Source of the DNA: a virus
Direction: 5' to 3' (one strand)
Length of the DNA: 43,085 bases
IMG/VR virus record: IMGVR_UViG_3300031972_001084
Span: 1-43,085 of that record
Part shown: positions 3,499 through 24,995 of the stretch, in pieces
How the letters are laid out: every line of letters starts with the position of its first letter
How positions within the stretch are numbered: position 1 is the first letter of the stretch
Program-made: the position numbers and the translations under genes
The notes under the pieces: generated by a model
Databases searched by the model: none
The model's input: the letters and a program-made list of their open reading frames with translations, nothing else
What the model was told of the DNA's origin: nothing

Positions 3499-3693
3499 AT
3501 GCAAATCGAAAATCGCAAAAACGAGAGGGCAGAAGCTCGACTCGCGAACGCGTTTGTCAGATGCGCCGTTTGCGGTCGGACCCTGCCTGTCGGAATGGTC
3601 CCGCCTTGTGCTCGAGAGCGCGACCCGAGGAAGTGGGGTTATCCCTGCAAGCTCGCCGTCGATGACTCGGGCGTAATTCCGATTCACCATTGA
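3499..3693 (+). CDS. Small putative zinc-ribbon protein
   Basis: Encodes 64 residues. It contains CAVC (about 22-25), then Cys37 and Cys50, a spacing that could bind one zinc ion. An overlapping frame at 3491-3676 has the better-spaced ribosome binding site (AAAGGAAG at 3474-3481), but its product looks random, so this frame is preferred. It lies 4 bases before the small terminase gene. Function unknown. Confidence 0.45.
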   Translation: MQIENRKNERAEARLANAFVRCAVCGRTLPVGMVPPCARERDPRKWGYPCKLAVDDSGVIPIHH

Positions 3694-3697
3694 GACG

Positions 3698-4144
3698 ATG
3701 GCAAAGAAGAAGGTAGGGCGACCGAAGAAACTCCCCGTCACTGACGAGCTACTCGTCGAAGTGCGAGGTCTTGCGTCCCAAGGATTGACCCGGAAACAGA
3801 TCAGCGCCGCGCTCGGAATCTCCGAGGCGCTTCGGTGCCGGATGATGAACAACGAGCCGGAATTCAAGACCGCGATCGAAGAGGGCGAAGCCGCCGGGAT
3901 CGCCCAAGTGACGAACTCGCTCATGGTCGCCGCTCGCTCCGGGAACGTCACCGCTCAAATTTTCTATCTGAAGAATCGTGATCCTGATAACTGGCGCGAT
4001 CGCCGCGAATACGAAGCGACTCACCGACACCTCCAGCCCGAAGTCGAAATCTCGAAAGAGATGAGCGCTCAAGATGCGGCGGACGCATACGCTGACACGC
4101 TGAAGCGGGGAAGAAGTGAAAACGTCGTCCCAATCCGTAAGTAA
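3698..4144 (+). CDS. terS: Terminase small subunit
   Basis: Encodes 148 residues. Residues about 24-50 (EVRGLASQGLTRKQISAALG) form a helix-turn-helix expected to bind the packaging site. The following SLMVAARSGNVTAQIFYLKN and NWRDRREYE pattern is characteristic of terminase small subunits of the terS-HTH type. It recognises phage DNA and feeds it to the large subunit, whose gene overlaps by 29 bases. The basic N-terminus (MAKKKVGRPKK) is also common in this family. Assignment is supported by both sequence and position. Confidence 0.85.
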   Translation: MAKKKVGRPKKLPVTDELLVEVRGLASQGLTRKQISAALGISEALRCRMMNNEPEFKTAIEEGEAAGIAQVTNSLMVAARSGNVTAQIFYLKNRDPDNWRDRREYEATHRHLQPEVEISKEMSAQDAADAYADTLKRGRSENVVPIRK

Positions 4145-5795
4145 GGCGAGGACCGAACTCCGACCTCCCGAAACTACGAACGTATGGCCCGTCGATGTAA
4201 CGGCGATCTATGCGTGGCGGCAACAGCAAGTCCAGCTCATCCGATCCGATCCGAGGCTCGCATACGGAGCGAAGGTCTACTACCGGACCCATCCGGTCCA
4301 GTTCGTGAATCACTGGTGCGACACCTACGACCCACGCCGCGCCGGGAAGGGATCGACCAAGCTCCCGCTCATCCTGTTCCAGCGTCAGGAAGAACTCGTC
4401 GAGTTCCTTCTCGCTTGCGTGACCGAGACCGAGCCGGGACTGATCGAGAAGTCTCGAGACATGGGCGCGACATGGGTCGCCAGCGCCTTCAGCGTTTGGC
4501 TCTGGCTGTTCTGGCCCGGAGTCGCTGTCGGGTGGGGATCGAGAAAAGAACAGCTCGTCGATAAGCTCGGCGATCCTGACAGCATCTTCGAAAAAATACG
4601 GATGCTCATTCACGGACTCCCGGAGTTCTTCCTCCCGGACGGATTCTCGCCAAGCGATCACATGACCTTCATGCGAATTATCAATCCCGCCAACGGCGCG
4701 ACGATCACCGGGGAAGCCGGCGACAATATCGGACGCGGCGGAAGGAAGCTGATCTACTTCAAGGACGAGTCCAGTCATTACGAGCGCCCGGAGAAGATCG
4801 AGGCGGCGCTTTCCGACACCACTCGAGTCCCGATCGATATCTCGTCAGTGAACGGAATCGGGAACGTGTTTCACCGCAAACGGGAGAGCGGCGCGGACTG
4901 GAACGGAGTCGTCATCAAAGGCAAGACTCAAGTCTTCGTCATGGACTGGCGGGATCATCCTGATAAGAACCAATCGTGGTACGATACCCGCAAGGCGAGA
5001 GCGGAGGAGGAAGGTCTCCAACATATCTTCGCCCAAGAGGTCGATCGCAACTACGCCGCTTCTGTTGACGGCGCTTTGATCCAGCAAGAGTGGGTCCAAG
5101 CCGCGATCGATGCTCATCTGAAACTGGAACTTAATGATTCGGGTCCGTGGTCTTCGGCCCTAGACGTTGCGGATAGTGGTTCGGATACGAACGCGCAAAG
5201 CCAGCGACAAGGAATCATCCTTCGGGCGCTGGACGAATGGGGCGCTCGAGACACCGCCCAGACAGCCCGACGCGCTATCGCCAACGTCACCAAACGAGGA
5301 CGTCTCGACTTGCAATACGATTGCATTGGAGTCGGCGCAGGAGTGAAGGGCGAAGTGAACAATCTTCGGGATGAGAACTTGATGCCGAACGGAATCCGAT
5401 TCGTTCCGTGGAACGCTGGCGGAAAGGTGCTCAACCCCAAGAAGCGCGTCATCCCCGGCGACAAGCAAAGCCCACTCAACGAGGAGTTTTACACGAACCT
5501 CAAAGCCCAAGGCTGGTGGGAGCTTCGGAATCGGTTCTACAGGACATGGCGCTCGATCCACGAAGGCGCTCACTACGATCCCGACTCACTGATCTCGATC
5601 GACTCCCGGATCAAGAATCTCCGCAAGCTCGAGAAAGAGCTTTGCCAAGTCACCGCGTCGAAAGGCGCTCGACTCAAACTGGTCATCGACAAGACGCCGG
5701 ACGGGACGAAATCCCCGAACCTCGCCGACGCCGTCATGATGGATTATTGGCCCATGAGAAGCGGGTACGATCTGGCGAAATTCATGGGCGACTAA
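4116..5795 (+). CDS. terL: Terminase large subunit (packaging ATPase and nuclease)
   Basis: Encodes 559 residues from a GTG at 4116 with GGGGA upstream. The ATPase half has a variant Walker A (EKSRDMGATW, 111-120) and Walker B (LIYFKDE, 212-218). The nuclease half has an RNase H-like set of acids: Asp350 and Asp353 (ALDVADSGSD), Asp402 (YDCIGVG) and Asp538 (NLADAV). It pumps DNA into the prohead through the portal and cuts it. Length and motif order are normal for the family. The Walker A form with Arg-Asp-Met-Gly-Ala-Thr rather than GxGKT is common in one large terminase group and does not imply loss of function. Confidence 0.95.
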   Translation: MKTSSQSVSKARTELRPPETTNVWPVDVTAIYAWRQQQVQLIRSDPRLAYGAKVYYRTHPVQFVNHWCDTYDPRRAGKGSTKLPLILFQRQEELVEFLLACVTETEPGLIEKSRDMGATWVASAFSVWLWLFWPGVAVGWGSRKEQLVDKLGDPDSIFEKIRMLIHGLPEFFLPDGFSPSDHMTFMRIINPANGATITGEAGDNIGRGGRKLIYFKDESSHYERPEKIEAALSDTTRVPIDISSVNGIGNVFHRKRESGADWNGVVIKGKTQVFVMDWRDHPDKNQSWYDTRKARAEEEGLQHIFAQEVDRNYAASVDGALIQQEWVQAAIDAHLKLELNDSGPWSSALDVADSGSDTNAQSQRQGIILRALDEWGARDTAQTARRAIANVTKRGRLDLQYDCIGVGAGVKGEVNNLRDENLMPNGIRFVPWNAGGKVLNPKKRVIPGDKQSPLNEEFYTNLKAQGWWELRNRFYRTWRSIHEGAHYDPDSLISIDSRIKNLRKLEKELCQVTASKGARLKLVIDKTPDGTKSPNLADAVMMDYWPMRSGYDLAKFMGD

Positions 5796-5801
5796 CAAAA
5801 A

Positions 5802-5827
5802 TAGACAAATTTGTCTACTAGTTTTTT
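5802..5827 (+). terminator. Perfect 16-base palindrome followed by T6
   Basis: TAGACAAATTTGTCTA (5802-5817) is a perfect palindrome, followed by CTAG and TTTTTT (5822-5827). As RNA it gives a 6-bp stem with an AAUU loop and a U-tract, so it may be a weak intrinsic terminator after terL. As DNA it looks like a dimeric repressor operator, with GATAAT at 5828-5833 resembling a -10 box. Both readings are open. Confidence 0.5.
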
Positions 5828-5854
5828 GATAATATCGGAGCGGATTAAGGACGC

Positions 5855-6280
5855 ATGGAAGAACGGAGAACAAAAATGGAGCAAATTATGGGGGCGCTTC
5901 GATCGGAGAAGTTATCGACAGGGATCGCCGGACTTCTCCTGACCATCGCTGTCGTTGGGTTTACGTGGGCGGACGGCGAACACAAGGCGATCATGGATCA
6001 GATCGTTCCTCGCGACGTCTACGAGCGCGAACAAGAGGAACTCAAGCAACAACTCGCCACGCTGACGACCGCCGTGACCGACTACATCTCGGACGCCAAG
6101 ATTGTCGATGCCAGTCAGCTCGTTCGGGACAAGGAACTCACGTTACAAGTGGCTGTTGCCGCCGGACAGACGGCGGAAAACATCGAGCATATCGAAAACG
6201 AAATCGAACAGGCGAAACGTTACCGGGACTGTCTGATTTCGGAACGCCCAAACTGTAAACACTTGAAGCCGCCGGAATGA
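5855..6280 (+). CDS. Membrane-anchored coiled-coil protein, possible holin or inner-membrane spanin
   Basis: Encodes 141 residues from the ATG at 5855 (AAGGA at 5845-5849); an in-frame ATG at 5876 also has an upstream GGAG. One transmembrane segment lies at about 21-40 (STGIAGLLLTIAVVGFTWA). The rest is a predicted coiled coil (EREQEELKQQLATL; AENIEHIENEIEQAK). The layout fits an i-spanin (one N-terminal anchor, periplasmic helix) or a simple holin. It directly precedes the endolysin gene with ATGA overlap, and a lipoprotein gene follows two genes later, as in lysis cassettes. Confidence 0.55.
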   Translation: MEERRTKMEQIMGALRSEKLSTGIAGLLLTIAVVGFTWADGEHKAIMDQIVPRDVYEREQEELKQQLATLTTAVTDYISDAKIVDASQLVRDKELTLQVAVAAGQTAENIEHIENEIEQAKRYRDCLISERPNCKHLKPPE

Positions 6281-6585
6281 CGCTCGGGGACAAAAGACGA
6301 CGATTCACGGAAGCGAAAGCGCTTCTCATCCAGTACGTTCAATACCGGGGATGGAAAGCGGCGGAGGATTACCTGAAACGGTGTCAGGAATGTCCCGTAG
6401 GAGACCACGACAGCGTCCACAAGCTCGGATTGGCGGTAGACCTGAACCTCTACATTAACGGGGTCTATATCCGCGACGAGAGAGGACATGAAGAGCTTCA
6501 CGATTTCTGGGATTTGCTCGGTGGAGCGCCCCGGATCGACGACGACATGAATCACTATTCTTTCGAACACAACGGCAAATGGTAA
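6277..6585 (+). CDS. M15-family peptidoglycan peptidase (endolysin)
   Basis: Encodes 102 residues. SVHKLGLAVDLN (46-57) matches the M15 zinc motif SxHxxGxAxD, giving His48 and Asp55 as ligands. The C-terminal NHYSFEHNGKW supplies the last ligand (His98) and the likely catalytic Glu97. Enzymes of the D-Ala-D-Ala carboxypeptidase/L-Ala-D-Glu endopeptidase type cut peptide cross-links of the cell wall for lysis. No signal peptide is present, so a holin is needed for release. The single-domain size is normal for phages of Gram-negative hosts. It sits within the lysis cassette. Confidence 0.85.
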   Translation: MTLGDKRRRFTEAKALLIQYVQYRGWKAAEDYLKRCQECPVGDHDSVHKLGLAVDLNLYINGVYIRDERGHEELHDFWDLLGGAPRIDDDMNHYSFEHNGKW

Positions 6586-6597
6586 AGGAAGACCGAC

Positions 6598-6972
6598 ATG
6601 GCTGAGTTCATCGAAATCCCGTCGCTCAATTTCCACGACAGCGGGAAGAAATTCACAATCGAAGAGCGGCTCGTTTACGAGTCCGATCTCTGGCCCGACC
6701 TGATCATCGTCCCGGCTGGATTCGTCACGGACCTCGCAAGCATCCCTCGCATATTCCAATCGCTGATCCCGAAGATCGGGAAGCACGCGCTCCCGGCAAT
6801 TGTCCACGACTACTTGTGTCGGCTGGACGGTTTCGACAGGCGGCTCGCCGACCGGATATTTCTCGAGGCGATGAAGGAGCGCGGAGTGAATCGGATTCGC
6901 CGGCGATTGATGTATTGGGCGGTCGCTCTCCTGACGTTTTTCTTGAGGAAACGAGGAGACGCAAATGAATAG
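6598..6972 (+). CDS. DUF1353 family protein
   Basis: Encodes 124 residues. VPAGFVTDLASIPR (about 39-52) followed by PAIVHDYLCR and ADRIFLEAMKERGV is the signature of DUF1353, a common small phage protein found near lysis or tail genes. The C-terminus (LMYWAVALLTFFLRK) is hydrophobic and may associate with the membrane. The role is not established; the position between endolysin and lipoprotein suggests lysis or superinfection effects at the envelope. Confidence 0.8.
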   Translation: MAEFIEIPSLNFHDSGKKFTIEERLVYESDLWPDLIIVPAGFVTDLASIPRIFQSLIPKIGKHALPAIVHDYLCRLDGFDRRLADRIFLEAMKERGVNRIRRRLMYWAVALLTFFLRKRGDANE

Positions 6973-7261
6973 ATTGATAACGATTCTTGGCTTGGTGCTC
7001 GTTGTTCTTTGCGGTTGCGCCGGCAAGGGCTTGAAGATCGATTACGTCGATCCTTCAGGAAAAAACGTGACCATCTCCACCGACTATCAGGTCGAGAACG
7101 GATTCACGATGGAGCGGGATGGGGAAGGCTACAAGATCGACCTCGGTTCCGCGACGACCAAGGACGCCGAGATGGGCATCATCGCGGAATTGCTTCGCAT
7201 GATGACGGTTTTCATGGCGGCTGGAATTCCTGTAGCGCCGCAAGACGCGAACGGAAATTGA
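6965..7261 (+). CDS. Small lipoprotein, possible outer-membrane spanin
   Basis: Encodes 98 residues. A type II signal peptide is visible: Asn2-Arg3, a hydrophobic core (LITILGLVLVVL) and the lipobox LCGC, with Cys18 as probable lipidation site. The mature part is mostly beta-forming and polar, with a hydrophobic stretch near 75-88. In the lysis cassette of a Gram-negative phage it could be the o-spanin partner of the gene at 5855, or an exclusion lipoprotein. It overlaps the DUF1353 gene by 8 bases. Confidence 0.6.
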   Translation: MNRLITILGLVLVVLCGCAGKGLKIDYVDPSGKNVTISTDYQVENGFTMERDGEGYKIDLGSATTKDAEMGIIAELLRMMTVFMAAGIPVAPQDANGN

Positions 7262-7297
7262 AACTACTTTTTTTAACATTCCCCGGAGGAATATTTC

Positions 7298-7750
7298 ATG
7301 GCTACATTCACGAAGATCAACGACTTTGTCGAGCACGTTGCCGAGGGTGTTCATAACCTCGGTTCCGACCAACTCGCGGTCGCTCTGTCCAACACCGCTC
7401 CCGGTTCCGAAACGTCGGACCCGACGGCTGACGGCAACGGCGCAATCGCCAACGTGACTCAGATCGCATACACCAATCTCTCGACCCGGAATATCACGAC
7501 GAGCGCGTCCAGTCAGACCGCCGGCGTTTACTCGCTGTCACTGACTGACCTGACCCTGTCAGCGTCCGGCGGCGCGGTTGCGACGTTCCGTTACATCTAC
7601 ATTTACAACGACGCCGCGACGACACCAGTAGACGCGCTGATCGGGCTGTACGATTACGGCTCGGCGCTGACTCTGGCGGACGGCGAATCGCTGACCATCG
7701 ACTTCGGAGCGAACGGCGCTGGCGCTGGCAATCTGTTGACGATCACGTAA
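7298..7750 (+). CDS. Virion structural protein (beta-rich, decoration or tail-associated)
   Basis: Encodes 150 residues with a strong CCGGAGGA site. The start (MATFTKINDFVEHVAEGVHNL) and the Ser/Thr/Ala-rich beta body ending in DFGANGAGAGNLLTIT match a widespread group of small phage structural proteins lying next to fibre genes. It has no signal peptide or catalytic motif. Strong translation signals and a hairpin directly after the gene suggest that it is made in quantity. The exact position in the virion cannot be told. Confidence 0.6.
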   Translation: MATFTKINDFVEHVAEGVHNLGSDQLAVALSNTAPGSETSDPTADGNGAIANVTQIAYTNLSTRNITTSASSQTAGVYSLSLTDLTLSASGGAVATFRYIYIYNDAATTPVDALIGLYDYGSALTLADGESLTIDFGANGAGAGNLLTIT

Positions 7751-7765
7751 GAACGATTCGGGCTT

Positions 7766-7789
7766 GGCTCCCTCCGGGGAGCCGGCTTT
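7766..7789 (+). terminator. GC-rich hairpin after the structural gene
   Basis: GGCTCCC (7766-7772) and GGGAGCC (7777-7783) form a perfect 7-bp stem with a TCCG tetraloop, followed by GGCTTTC. The U-run is short, so it may act as a partial terminator or as a 3' end stabiliser separating expression of the two flanking genes. Confidence 0.5.
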
Positions 7790-7808
7790 CGCTCGGCAGG
7801 AGTAGACG

Positions 7809-9947
7809 ATGGCATGGAGTAGACTGGATTTTGATGCCTTTACAGGTTTCGAGTGTGGCGGCTCGTTTACATCCCTAGTCAACGTTTCGACCTCGGGGAC
7901 GGTCGCGTATGAAAACGGTCCAGCGCGAAGCGGTCAATTTTCTTTATCGTTAGCGGCTGGTTCGTCGATTACGTTTAACGCACTGGGGCAATTAGCGTCT
8001 GATCCGTGTTTTCACCAAGTCTCGGTTTTACTTAACAACGCTTCGGCTCATTTGGAGATCAAAGTAGGAGCGTCTGACGATACGAGCACGAACTATGTTC
8101 TCAGTATCAAGCCGACCGAAATCGAGTTTTCAGACGCGGACGGAACGCAGTTGTTCATCGATAGCACTGTGAACCTATCCATAAATAAGTGGCATGACGT
8201 TTTCGTTTGGATTGAAAGTTATCTGACGAACGAAGCGTGGGAAGTGTGGATCGATCGGGAGTTGGTAGATAGCGGTACTGGCGCGAATTTTGACGTCGAT
8301 GGGTTTAACGGAAGGGACTTGATCCTTGAGTCGGTGACGGGGGGCGCGACGCTATATGTGGATAATTGGGTTTCTCACCAAAACGACGATTTCCCAACCT
8401 CTTCAGAAGAGCGGTGGATTAAAAAGCCACACATAGAAAGATGGGGTTCTGACACGGTTGGAGCGACGGCTGATTGGTCGGACGCGACTTCGCAATCGAG
8501 CGCATTGGATACGGGCAATTTTGGTAACTGGTCAGCGCGACCAATAGACGCAAACGAAGGAGGGTTTCAATCACAAACCGCCCTCAATTATCTCGGTCTG
8601 GTTTGCGATACATCGAGCGGCGGTTCACTACTACAAGAATATGTCGAAGTTGACGCAACGTGGTCGCCGGGACAAGGCGTTTTTAGTTCAGACGGGGCGC
8701 GGTTTATTTACTGCAATAGCGATAATGAGTCGATCTCTCAAGTGTCGCTGTCTACTGCTTACGATTTAGAAACTCGGGGGAGTGTTACTAGCTGGAATCC
8801 AACGCAGACCGGGGCAACGATTCGAGGGTTCTGTTTTGGTGATGACGGAAGCAAGCTATACATTCGAGCAAACGACGGGACGGAAACGGTTTATCAATAT
8901 AGCTGTTCGTCTGCGTACGATATTTCAACCACTCCGACATATGACAACAAATCGAAATCCGGTTTCGATGCCGGAACGTCGGCGGTCGATCAGGGGTTCA
9001 AGCCGCTTTTCAACGCTGACGGAACAGCGCTGTTTCTAAATGATAGCGCTGGAATCCATAAATACTCTGTCAGTACCGCGTGGGATATATCGACGGCTGG
9101 AACAACATCGACACAAACGCTGGACACGACACCGGACGCCGACGGTTTTGATTTCTATCGGAACGGGAATCTTCTGGTCGTTGTTCAAGATGGCGGTCTT
9201 ATTCGAGGCTATCATTGCGCCGACGGCGCTTATGACATTGGAACGAATTGTACGGCTCCCGGCGAAGCGCAAACATACGCCGACGAAAACTTCCAGTGGT
9301 GCTCAATACGCGGAAGCCGTTTACTGGCTGGTGATCCAAGCGCGAATCGAATCGGGCTGTATCAAATACCGGTGTCTCCTTTCGCGCCAGATTCCGAGCC
9401 GATCTGTAGCGGAGGACCGAACGGAAATCCGTGGTGTGACGGCGACGGCTCAACACCACCGGCGCGGCTAATAATTAACGCCTTAATTCACAAAGGAACC
9501 GTGACTACAGGGACCTTCCAAATCGTGTTAGGGAAGTGGGACGGCTCAACGTCTCCTACCGTACAGGGCGCGTCAATCGGGACCAACTATTCCGCTGGTC
9601 AGGCGCTATATCCTTTGGGTCTTGTCGATAGGACCGAATACGCGGCGTACGGAATCAAGACGGTAGACGGCTCCGCTGATGTATTACATGAAGCGGTAGC
9701 GCTCATGGCGTTGATGGATTTGCCAACGGTTCCAGAATACGAACTTGAGGGCTATCGATGGCGCGATGACGACGGCTCCGAGTCCGGTGCAACGTGGCAC
9801 GAAACCCAAGACACCGACACGACTCAACCTGCCGAAACGAATGTACGCCTTAGAACATTAATCGACGTCACGAACGATCCAGAGTCGAATCAGGTGACGC
9901 TCCAATATCGCAAGGTCGGCGAAACAGAATGGAACACAATCGAATGA
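7809..9947 (+). CDS. Tail fibre/adhesin with LamG-like and propeller-repeat domains
   Basis: Encodes 712 residues. Residues about 1-195 resemble a concanavalin/LamG-like sandwich (WHDVFVWIES, WEVWIDRELVDSGTG, TLYVDNW). Residues about 270-510 hold at least four blade-like repeats of about 50 residues, each with a variant of STAYDIST (TAYDLETRG, SAYDISTTP, TAWDISTAG, GAYDIGTNC) after an F-DG-KLYI-type strand, as in beta-propeller phage proteins. The C-terminal LRTLIDVTNDPESNQ...LQYRKVG block is a common phage fibre ending. Composition is more AT-rich than in the head genes, as expected for an exchangeable host-range gene. Confidence 0.75.
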   Translation: MAWSRLDFDAFTGFECGGSFTSLVNVSTSGTVAYENGPARSGQFSLSLAAGSSITFNALGQLASDPCFHQVSVLLNNASAHLEIKVGASDDTSTNYVLSIKPTEIEFSDADGTQLFIDSTVNLSINKWHDVFVWIESYLTNEAWEVWIDRELVDSGTGANFDVDGFNGRDLILESVTGGATLYVDNWVSHQNDDFPTSSEERWIKKPHIERWGSDTVGATADWSDATSQSSALDTGNFGNWSARPIDANEGGFQSQTALNYLGLVCDTSSGGSLLQEYVEVDATWSPGQGVFSSDGARFIYCNSDNESISQVSLSTAYDLETRGSVTSWNPTQTGATIRGFCFGDDGSKLYIRANDGTETVYQYSCSSAYDISTTPTYDNKSKSGFDAGTSAVDQGFKPLFNADGTALFLNDSAGIHKYSVSTAWDISTAGTTSTQTLDTTPDADGFDFYRNGNLLVVVQDGGLIRGYHCADGAYDIGTNCTAPGEAQTYADENFQWCSIRGSRLLAGDPSANRIGLYQIPVSPFAPDSEPICSGGPNGNPWCDGDGSTPPARLIINALIHKGTVTTGTFQIVLGKWDGSTSPTVQGASIGTNYSAGQALYPLGLVDRTEYAAYGIKTVDGSADVLHEAVALMALMDLPTVPEYELEGYRWRDDDGSESGATWHETQDTDTTQPAETNVRLRTLIDVTNDPESNQVTLQYRKVGETEWNTIE

Positions 9948-10225
9948 CGATAGGTTGCATGGGAACCGCCCCGGATCATTGCTGTTACCTCGGCGAAGGC
10001 GGCGTCTGTCCGTACGTCGAAGAGAGGACTGTTCCGGGTCGTCGTTGGGCTTGCGGCTTGATGCGTAAGCTCGGAGATTGGAACCTCGTCATGGCGACGC
10101 CAGAGTACCGGGAGAACGTCGCGCCGTGGCTCGAGCCGCTCGGGATCAATTGTCGCGATTGGCCCCAAGATCATCCGGGCGCTCGATGCTCGACTTGCGG
10201 TTGGGGGATAAACGATGGCGATTGA
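9944..10225 (+). CDS. Small Cys-rich putative zinc-binding phage protein
   Basis: Encodes 93 residues; the ATG at 9944 overlaps the previous TGA (an in-frame ATG at 9929 would add five residues). It has eight cysteines in C...CC...C, C, C and C-C groups (DHCCYLGEGGVCPYVEE, RRWACGL, GARCSTCGWG). The CxYLGEGGxCPYxEExTxxGRRWxCGL pattern is shared by small phage proteins encoded beside tail-fibre genes. It may bind metal and help fibre assembly, but the role is not known. Confidence 0.6.
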   Translation: MTIGCMGTAPDHCCYLGEGGVCPYVEERTVPGRRWACGLMRKLGDWNLVMATPEYRENVAPWLEPLGINCRDWPQDHPGARCSTCGWGINDGD

Positions 10226-13200
10226 AAAACTTGTCCCTAATGCCAACGCGAATCCGGCGACCGTTCTCGCGGATAACGACTATACCGATCTGAACGAAAC
10301 CGTCGCGCTGTTCGACAGCGTTTTCAATACCACGCTGACAGACGAAGAGACCGGGACAGCGACTTGGACATTGCTCGATATTTCGACGGCTCCCGCGTCG
10401 ATTACATCGATGACGTTCCGCGCTCGCGGCGGCTTTCAAAATTGGTCGAATGATACGACCGAATACACGCTTTCGCTGTCGGTCGGTGGTGACACGTTTA
10501 GTCTCGTTTGGGACGCGGAGACTGACGGCAACGGACAGTCCACGAAAACGGTCGATTTAAGTACCGGCACAAACTATCCCTATACCGAAGCGCAAATCAA
10601 CGCGGCGACGGTAACGCTTGACCAAACGAATTGGGTCAGAGTCAAGGGCGCGGATGGTTCCTCGTTCCAGATCGACGCTTTCGAAATGGAGGTCGATTTC
10701 GCCGCCGCTTACGAGATGGACGCCGATCCCGGCGCGTTCACGCTGACCGGGATCGCCAACGCAATCGCGAAGGACGCTCGATTTACGCTGGCGGCTTCGT
10801 CGAACATCGCGGCGAGTGGAGAGAACACGACCGCGCAATTGACCGCGCCAACGGGCAAAACAACGGCTCAATTTGGCGGCGGTCGAATACAGGACGACGA
10901 GAATCCGACGGACGCGGTTGATATCGGAGCCGACGAGTACCGAGAGGATGAATGGTGTATCGAGGCGACGACGAAGGCGATCGCCGGTTCGCAATACGAG
11001 TTCCGAGTTCTCGTTGATGGCGAGGAATTAGACACCTATACCGTCACGCCGAAGTGGACGATCGAGGCGGCTGGCGCGAACGAATTGGACGCTTCGCCGG
11101 GAGCGTTCACGCTTTCTGGTCAAGATGCCGACTTCGACCATTTCTTCCATCTCCATCCCGACGCCGGGGCGTTCGTTGTCAGCGGTGTCGATGCGGACAT
11201 TCACCTCGCTTTCTTCATGGAAGCCGAGGCGGGTTCGTTTGTACTAGCTGGAACAGATGCCGACTTTGCTGTCATTCGACACCTTGAAGCCGAAGCCGGG
11301 AGCTTTGCGGTTGCTGGACAGGACGCCGAATTCCAACGCGGACACGTGGTCGCCGCTGAAGCTGGTTCGTTTGCGCTCACTGGTGTCGATGTAGCGTTCG
11401 CGCTTGGCGTAGCGATGGAAGCCGAAGCCGGGACGTTTGCCGTTGCCGGTCAGGACAACGCGTTCCAGCGTGGCTACGTTGCCGATCTGGAAGCGGGATC
11501 GTTCACGCTGGCGGGGATCGACGCGGACCTGAATCGAGGACTCGTTGTTCCGGCGGAATCCGGCTCGTTCGTGCTCGCTGGAATCGATGCCGCGCTAGGT
11601 CGTGGGTTGACAGTTGAACTCGACGCCGGATCGTTTGTTCTGGCAGGACAGGACGCCGAATTCCAGCGCGGATACGTGGTCGCCGCTGAAGCCGGTTCGT
11701 TTGCGCTGGCGGGGCAAGACGCCGACCTCGACTACACAATCCATTTCGACGCCGAAGCCGGTTCGTTCTTACTCACCGGGATCGACGCGACGCTCGACTA
11801 TCAACAGGGCTTCCCGGCTGAAGCGGGGTCGTTCGTATTAACCGGACAGGACGTCGCCTTCGACCTTGGCTTCGCACTCGATCTGGAAGCCGGTTCGTTT
11901 ACGCTGGCAGGACAAGACACGGACCTTCTCCGGGCGCTCCTTTTCAGCGCCGAAGCCGGTTCATTCACTCTCTCCGGTCAAGACGCCGAACTCGATGCTC
12001 AACGAGCGCTCGAGGCGGAGTCTGGATCGTTCGTTTTAAGCGGCACCGACGCCGCGCTTGATCGCTCTCTCATACTCCAAGCCGAAGCGCAGACCTACGT
12101 CCTTGCAGGGCAGGACGCAAACCTCGCGACTACGGATGTATTTCCGGCTGAAGTGGGGGCGTTCTCGCTGGATGGTGTCGGTGTCGCCTTTGCACTCTCC
12201 CGCGTATTCCAAGCCGAGACAGGTTCGTTCGTATTAGCAGGACAGGACGCGGACTTCCTCCGGGGCTATCACTTCGACGCCGATCCCCAGACGTTTGTCG
12301 TCACCGGGATCGATGCCAATTTCCTCACGGCGGGAGCGTTCCAAGCTGAGACAGGAACGTTCGCGCTTGCTGGTCAAAACATTGAACTCGTCCGCTCGCT
12401 AATCCTAGAAGCCGAGGCGCAGTCATTCACGCTATCAGGGCTAGACGCCGGCTTAAACGTCACCGACGTATTCCCCGGCGAGACGGGCGCGTTCAATGTA
12501 ACCGGGGTCGCCGCCGAGCTTCAGTATCAGCGGCAACTCGGAGTCGATCCGGGCGCGTTCATTCTGGCGGGGGTCGCCGCCGATCTGGACAAGGGATATC
12601 ACGTAGACCTCGAGGCGGGATCGTTCGCTCTGACAGGCGTCACCGCCGAGCTGGATGCGAGCTTCTATCTCGCCGCCGAGACGGGCGTCTTCAACCTCAC
12701 CGGGATCGATGCGAACCTTCAGGCTGAAGGGGCGCTCATGGCGGAGACCGGGGCGTTCGTTCTGGCTGGAACAGACGCCGACCTGATCCGCGATCTGATT
12801 GTCGAGCTGGATGCGGGATCGTTCCTCCTGACAGGCGAGAACGCGGACCTCGATCGAACCGATCTGTTCCCGGCGAATACGGGCGTCTTCACGGTCGCCG
12901 GACAGGACGCCGCGTTCCAGTACGCTCGCCAGTTCAGCGCCGAAGTGGGGTCGTTCATCCTCGCCGGTGCCGACGCCGACTACCTTCGCGGCTATCACCT
13001 TGACGCCGACCCGGAATCGTTCGCGGTATCCGGGATCGACGCCGCCTTCCAGCTCGGGAAAGTCCTCGAAGCCGACGCCGGTTCGTTCGTGCTTGCCGGG
13101 ACGGATGCGGACTTCCTCGGAGCGTGGCAACTCGACGCCGAAGCTGGCGCGTTTGTCCTCACTGGCGAGGACGCGAATCTGGCAACGCTTGGGAACTTCC

Positions 13201-14171
13201 CGGCGAATACTGGACCGTTCGTTCTGTCCGGGATCGACGCGGCGTTTGCGCTTGACCAGATCGTCGAGTTCGATGCCGGCTCCTTCGTGCTGGCGGGAGC
13301 CGAGGCGGACCTGAAGCGCGGCTATCATCTCGACCTCGAGACCGGGGCGTTCAACCTGACAGGACAGGTCGCCGAATTGACGCGATCCTTGGTGCTGGAA
13401 GCCGAGTCTCGGGGCTTTACCGTTGCTGGCGAGGACGCTGACCTTCTCGCGAGCCGTAACATAGCCCTAGAAGCCGCTCAGTTCGACGTAGACGGCGTTT
13501 CTGTCGATCTGAAGGCAACGTATCAAGTCAGCGCGGAGTCGGCGGCTTTCGCGGTTTCAGGAGAGGACGCCAACCTCAATACGACGGGCGCTTTCCCGGC
13601 ACAAACGGCGTCCTTCTCTGTTGCTGGCGAAGATGCCGCGCTCAAGCGCCAGCGTCGTCTCGATTGCGTTGCCGGCGCGTTCACATTTGCCGGCGAAGAT
13701 GCGGACCTCTCCAAGACGTTCACGCTCGGCGCTGAGACCGGCGATTTCGATCTCGCTGGCGAGGATGCGGCGTTCGATCGGGCGCTCGAAGCGGCACTCG
13801 AAGCCGGGGCGTTTACGGTCCAAGGACAGGACGCCGGACTGACGGCTGACCGGTCCATCGAGGCAGAATCGGGAAGTTTTGACGTCGTCGGCGAAGATTC
13901 TGAATTCGTCTTCGGCTTCGTTCTCGATGCCGAGACCGGCGCGTTCATTCTGGACGGCGAAAACGCCGAACTCCTTGGCGCGTATAGGCTTCCGGGAGAA
14001 GAGGGTGGTTTCGTACTAACCGGAACCGAAGCGAATTTCATATACTCCGAAATCATTCTCGGTGAAGACCGTGTCCCGGTACACAAGATTCGATTGGCAG
14101 AAAAGGATATCATTCGGTTGAGGGACGTTGTAACGGTCAGACTCGAGCAACAAATCAGGACGATTAAATAA
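10215..14171 (+). CDS. Giant tandem-repeat fibre-like protein (45 x 22 residues)
   Basis: Encodes 1318 residues. Residues about 1-165 are a beta-rich head. About 215-290 contain a domain with IQDDENPTDAVDIGADEY and YEFRVLVDGEELDTYTVTP, seen in other phage structural proteins. Residues 292-1281 are 45 exact-length 22-residue repeats (consensus AEAGSFxLAGxDAxLxRxxxL). A short C-terminal tail ends in VRLEQQIRTIK. There is no signal peptide or enzyme motif. The periodic short strands suggest a long beta-solenoid or stacked-strand shaft, so a virion fibre or spike is likely. It overlaps its neighbour genes. The function is inferred from architecture and position. Confidence 0.75.
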   Translation: MAIEKLVPNANANPATVLADNDYTDLNETVALFDSVFNTTLTDEETGTATWTLLDISTAPASITSMTFRARGGFQNWSNDTTEYTLSLSVGGDTFSLVWDAETDGNGQSTKTVDLSTGTNYPYTEAQINAATVTLDQTNWVRVKGADGSSFQIDAFEMEVDFAAAYEMDADPGAFTLTGIANAIAKDARFTLAASSNIAASGENTTAQLTAPTGKTTAQFGGGRIQDDENPTDAVDIGADEYREDEWCIEATTKAIAGSQYEFRVLVDGEELDTYTVTPKWTIEAAGANELDASPGAFTLSGQDADFDHFFHLHPDAGAFVVSGVDADIHLAFFMEAEAGSFVLAGTDADFAVIRHLEAEAGSFAVAGQDAEFQRGHVVAAEAGSFALTGVDVAFALGVAMEAEAGTFAVAGQDNAFQRGYVADLEAGSFTLAGIDADLNRGLVVPAESGSFVLAGIDAALGRGLTVELDAGSFVLAGQDAEFQRGYVVAAEAGSFALAGQDADLDYTIHFDAEAGSFLLTGIDATLDYQQGFPAEAGSFVLTGQDVAFDLGFALDLEAGSFTLAGQDTDLLRALLFSAEAGSFTLSGQDAELDAQRALEAESGSFVLSGTDAALDRSLILQAEAQTYVLAGQDANLATTDVFPAEVGAFSLDGVGVAFALSRVFQAETGSFVLAGQDADFLRGYHFDADPQTFVVTGIDANFLTAGAFQAETGTFALAGQNIELVRSLILEAEAQSFTLSGLDAGLNVTDVFPGETGAFNVTGVAAELQYQRQLGVDPGAFILAGVAADLDKGYHVDLEAGSFALTGVTAELDASFYLAAETGVFNLTGIDANLQAEGALMAETGAFVLAGTDADLIRDLIVELDAGSFLLTGENADLDRTDLFPANTGVFTVAGQDAAFQYARQFSAEVGSFILAGADADYLRGYHLDADPESFAVSGIDAAFQLGKVLEADAGSFVLAGTDADFLGAWQLDAEAGAFVLTGEDANLATLGNFPANTGPFVLSGIDAAFALDQIVEFDAGSFVLAGAEADLKRGYHLDLETGAFNLTGQVAELTRSLVLEAESRGFTVAGEDADLLASRNIALEAAQFDVDGVSVDLKATYQVSAESAAFAVSGEDANLNTTGAFPAQTASFSVAGEDAALKRQRRLDCVAGAFTFAGEDADLSKTFTLGAETGDFDLAGEDAAFDRALEAALEAGAFTVQGQDAGLTADRSIEAESGSFDVVGEDSEFVFGFVLDAETGAFILDGENAELLGAYRLPGEEGGFVLTGTEANFIYSEIILGEDRVPVHKIRLAEKDIIRLRDVVTVRLEQQIRTIK
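11088..14057 (+). repeat. Array of 45 in-frame 66-bp units
   Basis: Each unit encodes 22 residues with Gly5, Phe7, Gly11 and Asp13 as the best-kept positions (D/E-A-E-A-G-S-F-x-L-x-G-x-D-A-x-L). No unit has an insertion or deletion: 45 x 66 = 2970 bases, exactly the span given. Units ending in Phe before a Pro-start unit recur every 5 or 6 units (11, 16, 21, 27, 32, 38; also 44), showing a longer period laid over the basic one. A lone related motif (DADPGAFTLTG) lies upstream at about 10719. Confidence 0.9.
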
Positions 14172-14503
14172 TGGCGACAATCATTCGAAAACGCGGTGAT
14201 ACGTATCCGTACAAAATCCAGATCGTTGAGAAGATTTCTTGCGACCCGATCGACGTCACCGGCTTCTCTTTCCTCCTGACCGTGGACCCTTCCGCCGCCC
14301 CGGTAGATGACACCAATAATCTCTTCCAGATTTCCGGCGTCATCATCGACAGCGTGAACGGGATCGTCGGCTTCTCACCGAACGAGACTCAGGCGGACAA
14401 CGTGGGGAACTATTACTACGATATCCAGATGACCGACGCCGACCTTGCCAAGCGCACGATCGACGACGGGAAGTTCGTACTAAAACAGGACATCACGAAA
14501 TGA
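14171..14503 (+). CDS. BppU-like N-terminal-domain virion protein
   Basis: Encodes 110 residues. The pattern RGDTYPYKIQI, then GFSFLLTVDP, GIVGFSPNETQADNVGNYYYDI and GKFVLKQDITK matches the Ig-like domain found at the N-terminus of baseplate upper proteins and in many stand-alone phage proteins. It probably links fibre proteins to the particle. The ATG at 14171 overlaps the stop of the repeat-protein gene, so the two are translated together. Confidence 0.65.
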   Translation: MATIIRKRGDTYPYKIQIVEKISCDPIDVTGFSFLLTVDPSAAPVDDTNNLFQISGVIIDSVNGIVGFSPNETQADNVGNYYYDIQMTDADLAKRTIDDGKFVLKQDITK

Positions 14504-20177: not shown

Positions 20178-22395
20178 AGCGGAAATGATGCGTCGCTTGG
20201 GCCGATTCGAGAAATCGGTTCAAGAGGCGTTCCTTGCCGCTGTACGAAACGCCACAAGCCGAGCACAACTCGATCGACTCGCGGCGGCGATATTGTCCGG
20301 GGTAGAACAGGAGGTAATGCTCGCCGCCGGACTCCGCGAAGGGATGTATTCCCCGCTCACCGAATCGCTCCGGGGCGCGTACGTCGAGAACGGGAAACTT
20401 GTTCTGGCGGCGTCGGTTCCGAAGCGCCTCGGACTCGAGTTCGACATCAACAATCCTCGGGCTGAGAGCTGGCTTCGTTACAAGTCGGCGGAACTGGTCT
20501 CTGGACGGCTTCAGCCGCAACAGGTGGAGGCGATCCGGGTCATGCTGACCTCTGGCATGGCTAAGGGAAAAAATCCCCGTAGCGTCGCTCTGGATATCGT
20601 CGGGCGAATGTCGAAAGTTACTCGCCGGCGCGAGGGCGGCGTGCTCGGATTAACCGGACAGCAAGCGTGGTTTATCGACAACATGGCGGACGATCTCGCG
20701 AACCTGAATCATGAGCGCTACCTCGGGCGAAAACTCCGCGACAAACGCTTCGACAAGATGGTCGCGAAATCGATGGAGAGCGGGAAACCGCTGTCGGCAA
20801 AACAGCGCCAGAAGATCGTCGATCGATACTCCGACCGGATGCTCAAACACCGGGGCGACACGATCGCCAGAACGGAGGCGCTTCACGCCATGAACGAGGC
20901 GGGAGACGAGGCGATGCGACAGGTCATCGATTCCGGCGCGGCCCCCAAGGAAGCGATCGTCAAAATCTGGCGTCATAGTTATAGTAAGAACGAACGTCCC
21001 GGACACGTGGCGCTCAACGACGAGCGCCGATTGCTCGACGGATACTTCAAGAATCCCTACACCGACGCCTTCCTGAAATATCCCGGCGATCCCGGCGGCG
21101 GTCCCGGCGAGGTCGTAAATTGCCGGTGCTACATCGAACACGAAGTAGACTTCAGTCTAGCCGCGAAAGCGAAGGGCGGACAGCCGGGAACACCGACACC
21201 GCTCCCGGAAATTAAGCCGCCGAAACCGAAGCCGAAGCCGAAACCGAAGCCGAAGCCGAAACCGAAGCCGAAACCGAAGCCGAAGCCGAAGAAGAAGGTC
21301 GCGCCGCCCTTGCCGCCAGCTCCGAAGCCGTCAGCGCCGACCACGTTGAACGGTCCCGGCGCACCGGTCAGGCGCGAAGCGTGGTTCGAGGAATGGCGCA
21401 AAGCTGGATCGTTCGAAACAGAACGGCTTTCCGGTTTGTCGATGCGGCTCGATGATCCGATATTCATTCAGAAAAGAAAAAACAAGGGAGCGTTTCAGCG
21501 CGGCAATGGGTTGAGCATGGGAAACCACGAATCGAGTACCCGTTCCGGTCGCGCTGTCATGCGTCACGAATGGGGGCATTTTCTGGACTGGTCGCTTGGG
21601 CAAAAGCTCCGGGACACAAATCATTTTCTACACAAGAAATTGACCTCGATCGTCGGCGCGGAACTACGGACGCCGGACGGGTACGCCTCGGGATACAGCA
21701 AGGCGGTTTCCGCAATGCAAGCGGACGCGAAAGCGTTGAATCAAATGATTCGCCCGATCTGGAAAGAGATTTTCCCAGATAAAGGAGCGCGTGTTTTTAC
21801 TTCAAACCGCCTCGAGTGGGCTTGGACTCAAAAGGGCGTCAGACTTCAGCGCGGAAAGTACGGGACGCCAGAATTGGAAGCGGACATTAAGGCGGCGAAA
21901 GCGACGCTCCAAAAAGACAACAGTCTGATCGGAAGAGTTTGGCGGGAGATACAAAGCGATCGCAACAAGAGCGGGTCAAGGCTGGACAGCACCGATACGC
22001 TTCTCTTCGCGGAAGCGGCGAAGAAAGGCGACTTCTCTATTTTGTTGCATGAGAAAGGAAAATATCTTCGGGCTGTTATGGACGACAATACGAGTGATGC
22101 TATCCGGGACGGTAATCATATATGGGCGGCTTTCAGCGATACGATCGGATCAATGACAAAAAACAATGTCGCCGGGGCGAGTTGGGGGTGGGGTCATCCT
22201 ACTAGGTACTATAAAGGGGCTTATGGCGTTTCAAATCAGGCGACAGAAATATTCGCAAACTTGACAGAACTCGAAGCGGCTCTCCGGGGGAATCCGTTGC
22301 TGAAGGAGATTCTCGAAACATTTGTGCCGAATATTAAGTCGTACTATGACGAACTTTTGGACGTCCTTAATAAATCGCTAGGAACAGGAGGGTAA
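20164..22395 (+). CDS. MuF head protein fused to a C-terminal HEXXH metallopeptidase-like domain
   Basis: Encodes 743 residues. Residues about 1-330 are a phage head morphogenesis (SPP1 gp7/Mu F) domain, with RHSYSKNERPGHVALND and the closing NCRCYIE (Cys320, Cys322). Residues 354-375 are eleven Lys-Pro pairs, then a Pro-rich stretch. The C-terminal domain (about 400-743) has HEWGH (His468-His472), a zincin zinc motif; Glu695 in QATEIFANL is a possible third ligand. MuF proteins enter the capsid in a few copies, and C-terminal toxin or enzyme domains on MuF are known in temperate phages. The C-terminal part is less GC-rich than the MuF part, suggesting later acquisition. A host target is not evident. 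Confidence 0.8.
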   Translation: MAITRAEMMRRLGRFEKSVQEAFLAAVRNATSRAQLDRLAAAILSGVEQEVMLAAGLREGMYSPLTESLRGAYVENGKLVLAASVPKRLGLEFDINNPRAESWLRYKSAELVSGRLQPQQVEAIRVMLTSGMAKGKNPRSVALDIVGRMSKVTRRREGGVLGLTGQQAWFIDNMADDLANLNHERYLGRKLRDKRFDKMVAKSMESGKPLSAKQRQKIVDRYSDRMLKHRGDTIARTEALHAMNEAGDEAMRQVIDSGAAPKEAIVKIWRHSYSKNERPGHVALNDERRLLDGYFKNPYTDAFLKYPGDPGGGPGEVVNCRCYIEHEVDFSLAAKAKGGQPGTPTPLPEIKPPKPKPKPKPKPKPKPKPKPKPKPKKKVAPPLPPAPKPSAPTTLNGPGAPVRREAWFEEWRKAGSFETERLSGLSMRLDDPIFIQKRKNKGAFQRGNGLSMGNHESSTRSGRAVMRHEWGHFLDWSLGQKLRDTNHFLHKKLTSIVGAELRTPDGYASGYSKAVSAMQADAKALNQMIRPIWKEIFPDKGARVFTSNRLEWAWTQKGVRLQRGKYGTPELEADIKAAKATLQKDNSLIGRVWREIQSDRNKSGSRLDSTDTLLFAEAAKKGDFSILLHEKGKYLRAVMDDNTSDAIRDGNHIWAAFSDTIGSMTKNNVAGASWGWGHPTRYYKGAYGVSNQATEIFANLTELEAALRGNPLLKEILETFVPNIKSYYDELLDVLNKSLGTGG
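21223..21288 (+). repeat. Hexanucleotide tract encoding (Lys-Pro)11
   Basis: Eleven copies of (AAA/AAG)CCG lie in frame between the MuF and metallopeptidase parts. Slippage would change linker length by whole Lys-Pro pairs without shifting the frame. A Lys-Pro linker is stiff and extended, so it could hold the enzyme domain away from the portal region. Confidence 0.85.
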
Positions 22396-24128: not shown

Positions 24129-24995
24129 ATGACTCAATTCATTGCCAAGAAGTTTGGTTCCGGTTTTGATGGGTTTCACATGAAAATTTATGTAACAACC
24201 GGCGATTCGGACACGGAAATTCCGTTCGGATTTTCTGCGACGAGTGTTGATTGCGTTATTGATTGGGGCGACGGATCAACTGAATCTGTAACGGGCGACA
24301 AGTCAGGGGATGAGGTCGCTCATACCTACACCGAAAAGGATCGAGAATATGACATAAAAATTACCGGGACTATTCAAGAATTAGATTATGCAAATCCGAC
24401 AGCCAGCTCTCGAAATCAACTCAGGGAGGTTTTGCAATGGGGATCGTGCGGCTGGCTTGGACTTGGCGTTTCTTTTTATCGATGCGCGAATCTAACCGAG
24501 GTGAACGCGACCGACGGCTACAATTTAGAAAATTGCAATTATTTCGGTTATATGTTTTACCGCTGTAATTCATTGTTATCGGTCAATCTGTCAGGCTGGA
24601 TAACAACGAATTCAACTGATTTCCGAGTCATGTTCTATCAGTGTTACAACCTGACCGATATAGACGTCAGTGACTTCGATATGTCAAACGCGGAAAAAAT
24701 CTTCGCGATGTTTTATGAGTGCGACTCTCCGGCTGATTCTTATCAGTTAAACGTGACCGGAATGGATCAGTGGAACGTAGCGAACGTGGACGATGCGGTG
24801 AATCTGTTTTTCGGCGCTCATTTAGACGACACGGAATACGACAAAATTCTTGTCGCATGGGCCGCGCAAGCACCTAATCTTCAGTCGAACGTAACGGCTA
24901 CATTTGGTTCCGCGAAATATACCGAGTCCACCGCGAGAGGTGTTCTGACTGGCTCGCCTTACAACTGGTCGATCGCTGACGGTGGTCCAGCGTGA
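24129..24995 (+). CDS. PKD-like plus BspA/DUF285-type repeat adhesin
   Basis: Encodes 288 residues. Residues about 30-75 resemble a PKD/Ig-like domain (VDCVIDWGDGSTES, then HTYTEKDREYDIKITG). Residues about 100-225 hold degenerate BspA-type leucine-rich repeats of the DUF285 surface protein family (YMFYRCNSLLSVNLSGW; VMFYQCYNLTDIDVSDFDM; AMFYECDS). Such repeats mostly occur on bacterial surface proteins and bind ligands; here it is probably a receptor-binding virion protein. The gene is clearly more AT-rich than its neighbours, with AAT, TTA and ATA codons rare elsewhere in the window, suggesting recent transfer. No signal peptide. Confidence 0.7.
   Translation: MTQFIAKKFGSGFDGFHMKIYVTTGDSDTEIPFGFSATSVDCVIDWGDGSTESVTGDKSGDEVAHTYTEKDREYDIKITGTIQELDYANPTASSRNQLREVLQWGSCGWLGLGVSFYRCANLTEVNATDGYNLENCNYFGYMFYRCNSLLSVNLSGWITTNSTDFRVMFYQCYNLTDIDVSDFDMSNAEKIFAMFYECDSPADSYQLNVTGMDQWNVANVDDAVNLFFGAHLDDTEYDKILVAWAAQAPNLQSNVTATFGSAKYTESTARGVLTGSPYNWSIADGGPA

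Follow-up and report, generated by a model that had tools for sequence, protein, structure and literature searches.

What does a phage build from a protein unit of 22 residues that is repeated 45 times without a single insertion or deletion? The question is raised by an uncultivated tailed phage, IMG/VR virus record IMGVR_UViG_3300031972_001084 (positions 1 to 43,085; this whole stretch of 43,085 nucleotides is called the window here), in which a gene at 10215–14171 on the plus strand is an open reading frame (ORF) of 1318 amino acids. The repeat array lies at 11088–14057 on the same strand and, as an earlier sequence-only reading had counted, comprises 45 units of exactly 66 bases, all in frame. 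We conclude that the array is very likely a beta-solenoid, from a structural model taken together with the pattern of residues in the units, and that it probably forms a virion shaft.

The units are defined by a small number of positions. Position 11 is glycine in 45/45 units, and position 7 is phenylalanine in 44/45 and tyrosine in the remaining one. Position 9 is L, V or F throughout, and positions 9, 16 and 22 are each hydrophobic in all 45 units. G5 and A14 occur in 37/45 units each and D13 in 34/45 (D or E in 36/45). Gly5, Phe7, Gly11 and Asp13 had been singled out as kept, and within the window they are; Asp13 is not a trait of the family, as only 28% of 623 units from 116 other arrays have D at position 13 (here and below, counts for relatives of the array are among the matches listed). 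Residue identity at an offset of 22 is 39%, compared with 9.3% (standard deviation 0.9%) in shuffles. The period is 22 and not 3, and the array is not built of collagen-like G-X-Y triplets.

Mean base identity between window units is 50%, and for residues shared by a pair of units the third codon bases are identical in only 42% of cases. Tandem Repeats Finder, run on the window, did not detect the 11088–14057 array because the units share only half of their bases; a DNA pattern for three phased units gave 26 matches in the window and none in 100 shuffles. Adjacent units do not resemble each other more than distant ones do (lag 1, p 0.84; lag 3 gave p 0.0008 as one of 24 lags tested), so recent tandem growth is not claimed. 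Given the low base and third-codon agreement and the lack of likeness between neighbours, the array, as judged from its sequence, is old, its phase being maintained by selection on the protein and not a product of recent slippage. By eye, proline starts the units after 11, 16, 21, 27, 32 and 38, which hints at larger blocks, although the signal at lags 5 and 6 is weak (p 0.14 and 0.02). The array is acidic, with an isoelectric point of 4.05 and acidic residues at position 3 in 40/45 units and at position 13 in 36/45; such columns of like charge may need cations.

The structure of the repeat protein was predicted with AlphaFold2 (AF2), using an alignment of 41 rows. In place of a disordered or unrelated structure the model has a right-handed beta-helix, with one coil per unit. 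The array has a predicted local distance difference test score (pLDDT) of 75–92 in blocks of 10 residues, and strands recur every 22 residues at unit positions 6–16 and 19–2, most clearly in the first four units. VIA-align 2 places model residues 286–511 on right-handed beta-helices; its rows span these residues, and so are uninformative on the RIQDDEN domain described below and on the N-terminal 168 residues, both of which are without a fold match. The latter (10215–10718, plus strand) fall in the part of the model, residues 1–185, where pLDDT is mostly <50.

AF2 is reported to produce beta-solenoids that are false yet confidently scored when repeats are perfect (PMC11795689), so evidence independent of any model was sought; in section 3.2.8 of that paper all four methods agree for four Pfam families with diverged repeats. 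The independent evidence comes from charge. Across the 45 window units there are no charged residues at positions 2, 7, 9, 11, 14, 16 and 22, and in the 623 units of other arrays these positions are 0–1.1% charged. The pattern used for the search included positions 5, 7, 9 and 11; positions 2, 14, 16 and 22 are independent of it. The exclusion at 2, 7, 9, 14, 16 and 22 is as predicted by a three-sided coil with inward-facing pairs 7/9, 14/16 and 22/2, the inward and outward assignment being our own deduction from the sequence and not from coordinates. In other arrays the outward positions 6, 8 and 10 are ~2% charged, basic residues are frequent at 17, 18, 20 and 21, and those at 3 and 13 are either acidic or uncharged. 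The array has both the coils of ~20–25 residues, stacked in register in the model, and the nonpolar inward positions of the beta-helix class; its fold match has a VIA Z of 18.8, but a Foldseek E >0.7, and the bias of AF2 is documented. A solenoid with each unit as one rung, as proposed from the sequence, is thus supported by the model and separately by the periodic exclusion of charge. The argument first given for it, that strict phase implies a solenoid, was too strong, since relatives accept units of 18–25 residues.

The preferred reading, which we hold to be somewhat more probable than all others together, is that the array is a three-sided right-handed beta-helix rod that forms the shaft in a fibre or spike of the virion. 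Each 22-residue unit would form one coil, with the pairs 7/9, 14/16 and 22/2 facing inwards and Gly5 and Gly11 at turns. The rise per coil of a beta-helix is ~0.48 nm, so that a rod of 45 coils would be roughly 21 nm long. The RIQDDEN domain, inserted after the first coil, would sit on the rod as a side or end module, and the shaft would carry or space parts that contact a receptor. The nearly uncharged first face (6, 8 and 10) runs along the whole rod and so suggests a contact surface, its likely counterpart being a second chain or the phrog_644 partner protein described below. A long rigid shaft is the best reading of the array. The repeat, its phase, the selection on it, the predicted fold and the gene linkage are shown here, and a location in the virion, attachment to the tail rather than the head, the oligomeric state and a role in receptor contact are inferred.

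The closest structural likenesses of the predicted model (residues 286–511) include those to the secretion domains of two-partner-secretion adhesins. The HMW1 secretion domain (2odl) aligns with Z 18.8 and a root-mean-square deviation (rmsd) of 2.4 over 214 residues, followed by EtpA (8cpk, Z 17.7) and HxuA (4i84, Z 16.6), the three spanning rmsd 2.4–2.8 and 204–214 residues. They differ from the window protein in having 11–19% identity to it, and the latter is a phage gene product with a strict 22-residue coil and no Pfam match. The tailspikes CBA120 TSP3 (Z 15.7), LKA1 gp49 and HK620 contain a parallel beta-helix and belong to the same fold class, with Z about 13–16; unlike these, the window protein has short coils of constant length and no enzyme family match, and no lyase or hydrolase domain of a depolymerising tailspike was found in Pfam or PHROG. 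The long tail fibre gp015 of Agrobacterium phage 7-7-1 (9rkv) aligns over 196 residues with Z 13.1, and its aligned part (210–424) falls within its beta-helical domain (177–453); it is described as trimeric with a C-terminal jelly roll (PMC12796354). It differs in having 11% identity and no sequence match to our profiles. A Foldseek search of BFVD viral models gave two matches at E ≤ 0.001, both to uncharacterized proteins of uncultured Caudovirales (A0A6J7WAX7, E 3.7e-5; A0A6J5NBU5, E 6.2e-4). The whole repeat protein has no trustworthy match in Pfam, PHROG or the PDB. A PDB profile match to 6xi3, a large adhesion protein, was discounted in spite of its E of 7.6e-7, because the aligned pieces have i-Evalues of 0.6–13 each and disagree in phase.

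The window array is not alone. Using the three-unit DNA pattern, at least 120 matching stretches were found in IMG/VR, and we call this type the F/Y repeat. Among them 119 stretches resolve to ORFs, of which 116 are distinct, a few being near-duplicates. The spacing between units is 22 in 626/714 cases and 18–25 in the others, whereas none of the 44 spacings in the window deviates from 22 (p 0.003 if spacings are independent); the window is therefore stricter in phase than its relatives, which carry insertions and deletions. The number of copies differs also, the longest run in a relative being 24 units, so that the 45 of the window are the longest seen. When 58 five-unit arrays (54 of 57 slices from relatives and 4 from the window) were compared with libraries, no shared family was found, the best being Pfam in 3/58, with NCBIfam and PHROG each in 1/58. 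Five of 50,697 named phage records match the window protein via its array, and no match was found in 72,556 plasmid records. A back-translated search of viral contigs with the array itself found no relative, the array having diverged too far for exact patterns to match, and literature searches on 22-residue repeats or beta-solenoids with phage tails returned nothing on this family. On present sequence comparisons, then, the repeat is a common phage family unnamed in the libraries searched.

Arrays of the F/Y type have a frequent partner. The gene g7298 (7298–7750, plus strand), on the same strand as the repeat gene, has a homologue in 70/120 F/Y loci, in all 70 on the same strand as the array; 60 lie upstream within ~5 kb, 7 downstream, and 3 overlap the called ORF. 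Where 3 kb is available on both sides the homologue is found in 19/22 loci, compared with 0/22 of control loci selected by their portal genes (and so not random contigs). The family was assigned to phrog_644 in 37 of 38 members scanned, these being 37 of the 70 homologues plus the window's own. The partner follows the array type: among RIQDDEN loci it is present in 3/3 with an F/Y array vs 1/31 with another array or none (Fisher 0.0007, although the loci are not all independent). Apparent fusions of phrog_644 to the array in L088, L098 and L102 were rejected, as these array ORFs show no phrog_644 domain. The homologue in Pseudanabaena phage Pam1 is the unassigned gene Pam1_09, which adjoins the needle-head gene. 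By eye, the following gene, Pam1_10 (L187, 8272–9003), begins with two short, diverged stretches that resemble the repeat and then appears coiled-coil-like.

The RIQDDEN domain (10785–11087, plus strand), named here after its best-kept string, is an inserted, conserved domain of ~100 residues. Before it stands an orphan repeat unit (10719–10784, plus strand; unit motif at 10731), seen in an alignment; it is additional to the 45 and absent from the first count. The domain was found at 34 IMG/VR loci and in one genome contig (L044), and in 0 of 50,697 phage records; in an alignment of the domain only, made without L017, L018, L028, L031 and L044, the rows are 40–62% identical. What follows the domain is commonly periodic. 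Twenty-one proteins extend for 150 residues or more beyond the domain (a set that includes L044 and omits the near-duplicates L017 and L028); of these, 18 have a period of 20–24 residues or double this, the exceptions being L004, L039 and L044. Eleven other RIQDDEN proteins have little or nothing after the domain, and five have arrays of the same period on both sides, so that the domain is inserted within the array, as in the window.

The arrays themselves are of several kinds. Comparison by hhalign of the F/Y family with four other array types found beside RIQDDEN gave probabilities of ≤0.1%, and two comparisons among the other types gave ≤0.14%; a positive control with other F/Y arrays gave 99.6%, and the small alignments limit the sensitivity of the method between types. 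The arrays beside RIQDDEN seem to have been exchanged for sequence-unrelated ones of nearly equal unit length. It is possible, though we hold this tentatively, that uncultivated phages share a modular shaft system, in which RIQDDEN occurs in at least five array types, without a detected sequence relation, that have a rung of 20–24 residues, and in which whole arrays are swapped, or lengthened by rungs. Fibre length and surface chemistry would then vary around a constant rung geometry and inserted domain, with phrog_644 constant as well in the F/Y type. The fold class is already known; what is new is the family, its partner gene and the way in which unrelated arrays of near-fixed period appear to be exchanged. 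If correct, a widespread phage repeat family, unnamed in the libraries searched, would have an assigned fold, consensus and partner gene, together with a role in adsorption that can be tested. Unrelated arrays of near-equal period on one domain would be matched shafts, showing what must be conserved (length, rise or stiffness), and the family would supply natural beta-solenoids of great regularity and a test on real proteins of the solenoid bias of AF2.

A second module accompanies RIQDDEN. The EGYRWRDDDGSE module of ~65–70 residues (window 9750–9947, the C-terminus of g7809) occurs with RIQDDEN at 30/34 loci and rarely beside the F/Y repeat (2/120 loci); in some relatives the two are in one protein. 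Contig L044 belongs to a Candidatus Kaiserbacteria metagenome-assembled genome, and its 2690-residue ORF with RIQDDEN (3508–11580) may belong to the cell or to phage DNA that entered the bin.

Some observations weigh against a beta-helical virion shaft. Besides the bias of AF2, a Foldseek search of the model against the PDB gave nothing at E ≤ 0.001, the best being 0.73. An AF2 model of a related protein with an array of the 24-residue type has an array pLDDT of about 50–78, with weaker matches in the same class (HxuA, Z 10.3; FHA, Z 8.8). The repeat gene lies beside lysis and portal genes and not tail genes, and among the neighbours of F/Y arrays (105 of 208 neighbour ORFs were scanned) the portal, major head and lysis families were matched most.

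The position of the window gene just before the portal gene, and this preference among the 105 neighbours, would suit a fibre or decoration of the capsid, a rod on the head that helps the particle adhere to its host or to a surface. PMC12796354 mentions phages 7-7-1 and PhiCbK as having long fibres on the capsid. Gene position alone says little on location in the particle, and another phage provides an indirect link to the tail. EBPR siphovirus 2 gp72 carries the F/Y repeat (tblastn 3e-15) fused to a phrog_8917 domain (E 1.2e-97), and its gene is downstream of a tape-measure-like gene; in the window the phrog_8917 gene (E 4.3e-8) comes directly after the tape measure. A phrog_644 protein, gp76, is encoded near gp72, as is the window's partner near its array. 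The gp72 array is less regular than that of the window, and the record is without a RIQDDEN match. We regard a place on the head as unlikely. The record used, JF412297.1 (L008; 48,954 bases), is titled EBPR siphovirus 2, and a table in PMC3097231 gives JF412297 as ESV1 and JF412298 as ESV2.

The high rank of HMW1, EtpA and HxuA among the structural matches raises the alternative of a secreted or surface adhesin of the infected cell, a two-partner-secretion-like beta-helix outside the virion. This is improbable. No signature of an HMW1/FHA-type secretion domain was found in Pfam or by phmmer in the PDB, and no N-terminal signal peptide is obvious by eye. The gene stands in a same-strand structural block, and in EBPR siphovirus 2 a putative tail protein carries the repeat as a fusion.

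We give equally little credence to the beta-helix being an artefact of AF2, with the array forming either a beta fibre of several intertwined chains or an extended linker that is disordered in part. The documented bias and the non-significant Foldseek E values would speak for it, and many phage fibres are intertwined trimers. Against this, the units are diverged and are not perfect repeats; unlike a linker, they conserve their aromatic, glycine and aliphatic positions and exclude charge from seven positions. A solenoid binding ice, crystalline polysaccharide or an S-layer through a flat Ser/Thr/Ala face is very improbable, since, for all that the ~2% charged face is T/S-rich in the 623 units (T 62% at 10 and 37% at 8, S/T 64% at 6), the window face is mostly S, V and A with no ice-binding T-x-T (T in 4/45 at 6, 9/45 at 8 and 11/45 at 10).

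The repeat gene lies in a same-strand run comprising TerL (4116), a small protein at 6277, a DUF1353 protein (6598), g6965, g7298, g7809, g9929, the repeat protein, a phrog_1084 protein (14171) and the portal (14763). The likeness of the small protein to Peptidase_M15_4 (E 0.0067) is below the cut-off. The repeat gene has a lysis-like cluster on one side and the portal gene on the other, and the major tail and tape-measure genes are ~13 kb away. Its placement among fibre genes in the sequence-only reading holds to the extent that g7298 and g7809, neither with a Pfam family match, are plausible fibre-module genes; the flanks are otherwise as just described. The gene g7809 (7809–9947, plus strand) encodes 712 residues ending in the EGYRWRDDDGSE module, and it is this protein that has the tblastn match in 30/34 RIQDDEN loci. 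The ORF g9929 (9929–10225, plus strand; 98 residues) has a homologue in L016 only. Downstream, the repeat protein ends in a tail of 37 residues unrelated to the repeat (14058–14168, plus strand), followed by the 110-residue phrog_1084 protein (14171–14503, plus strand; PHROG E 1.6e-15), whose weak likeness to BppU_N (Pfam E 0.043) is below the cut-off. In locus L045 (TerL 72% and portal 64% identical) the flanking g6965 and g14500 are present and the counterpart of 7298–14503 is absent, with one other ORF of 209 residues in its place; the repeat protein therefore belongs to a replaceable cassette.

Two other repeats were noted in the window. A BspA/DUF285-type leucine-rich repeat protein (24129–24995; Pfam E 1.7e-11) is encoded upstream of the major tail gene, and a GCCGAA tandem (21219–21291) coincides with a run of Lys-Pro in a Mu F-like head-morphogenesis protein.

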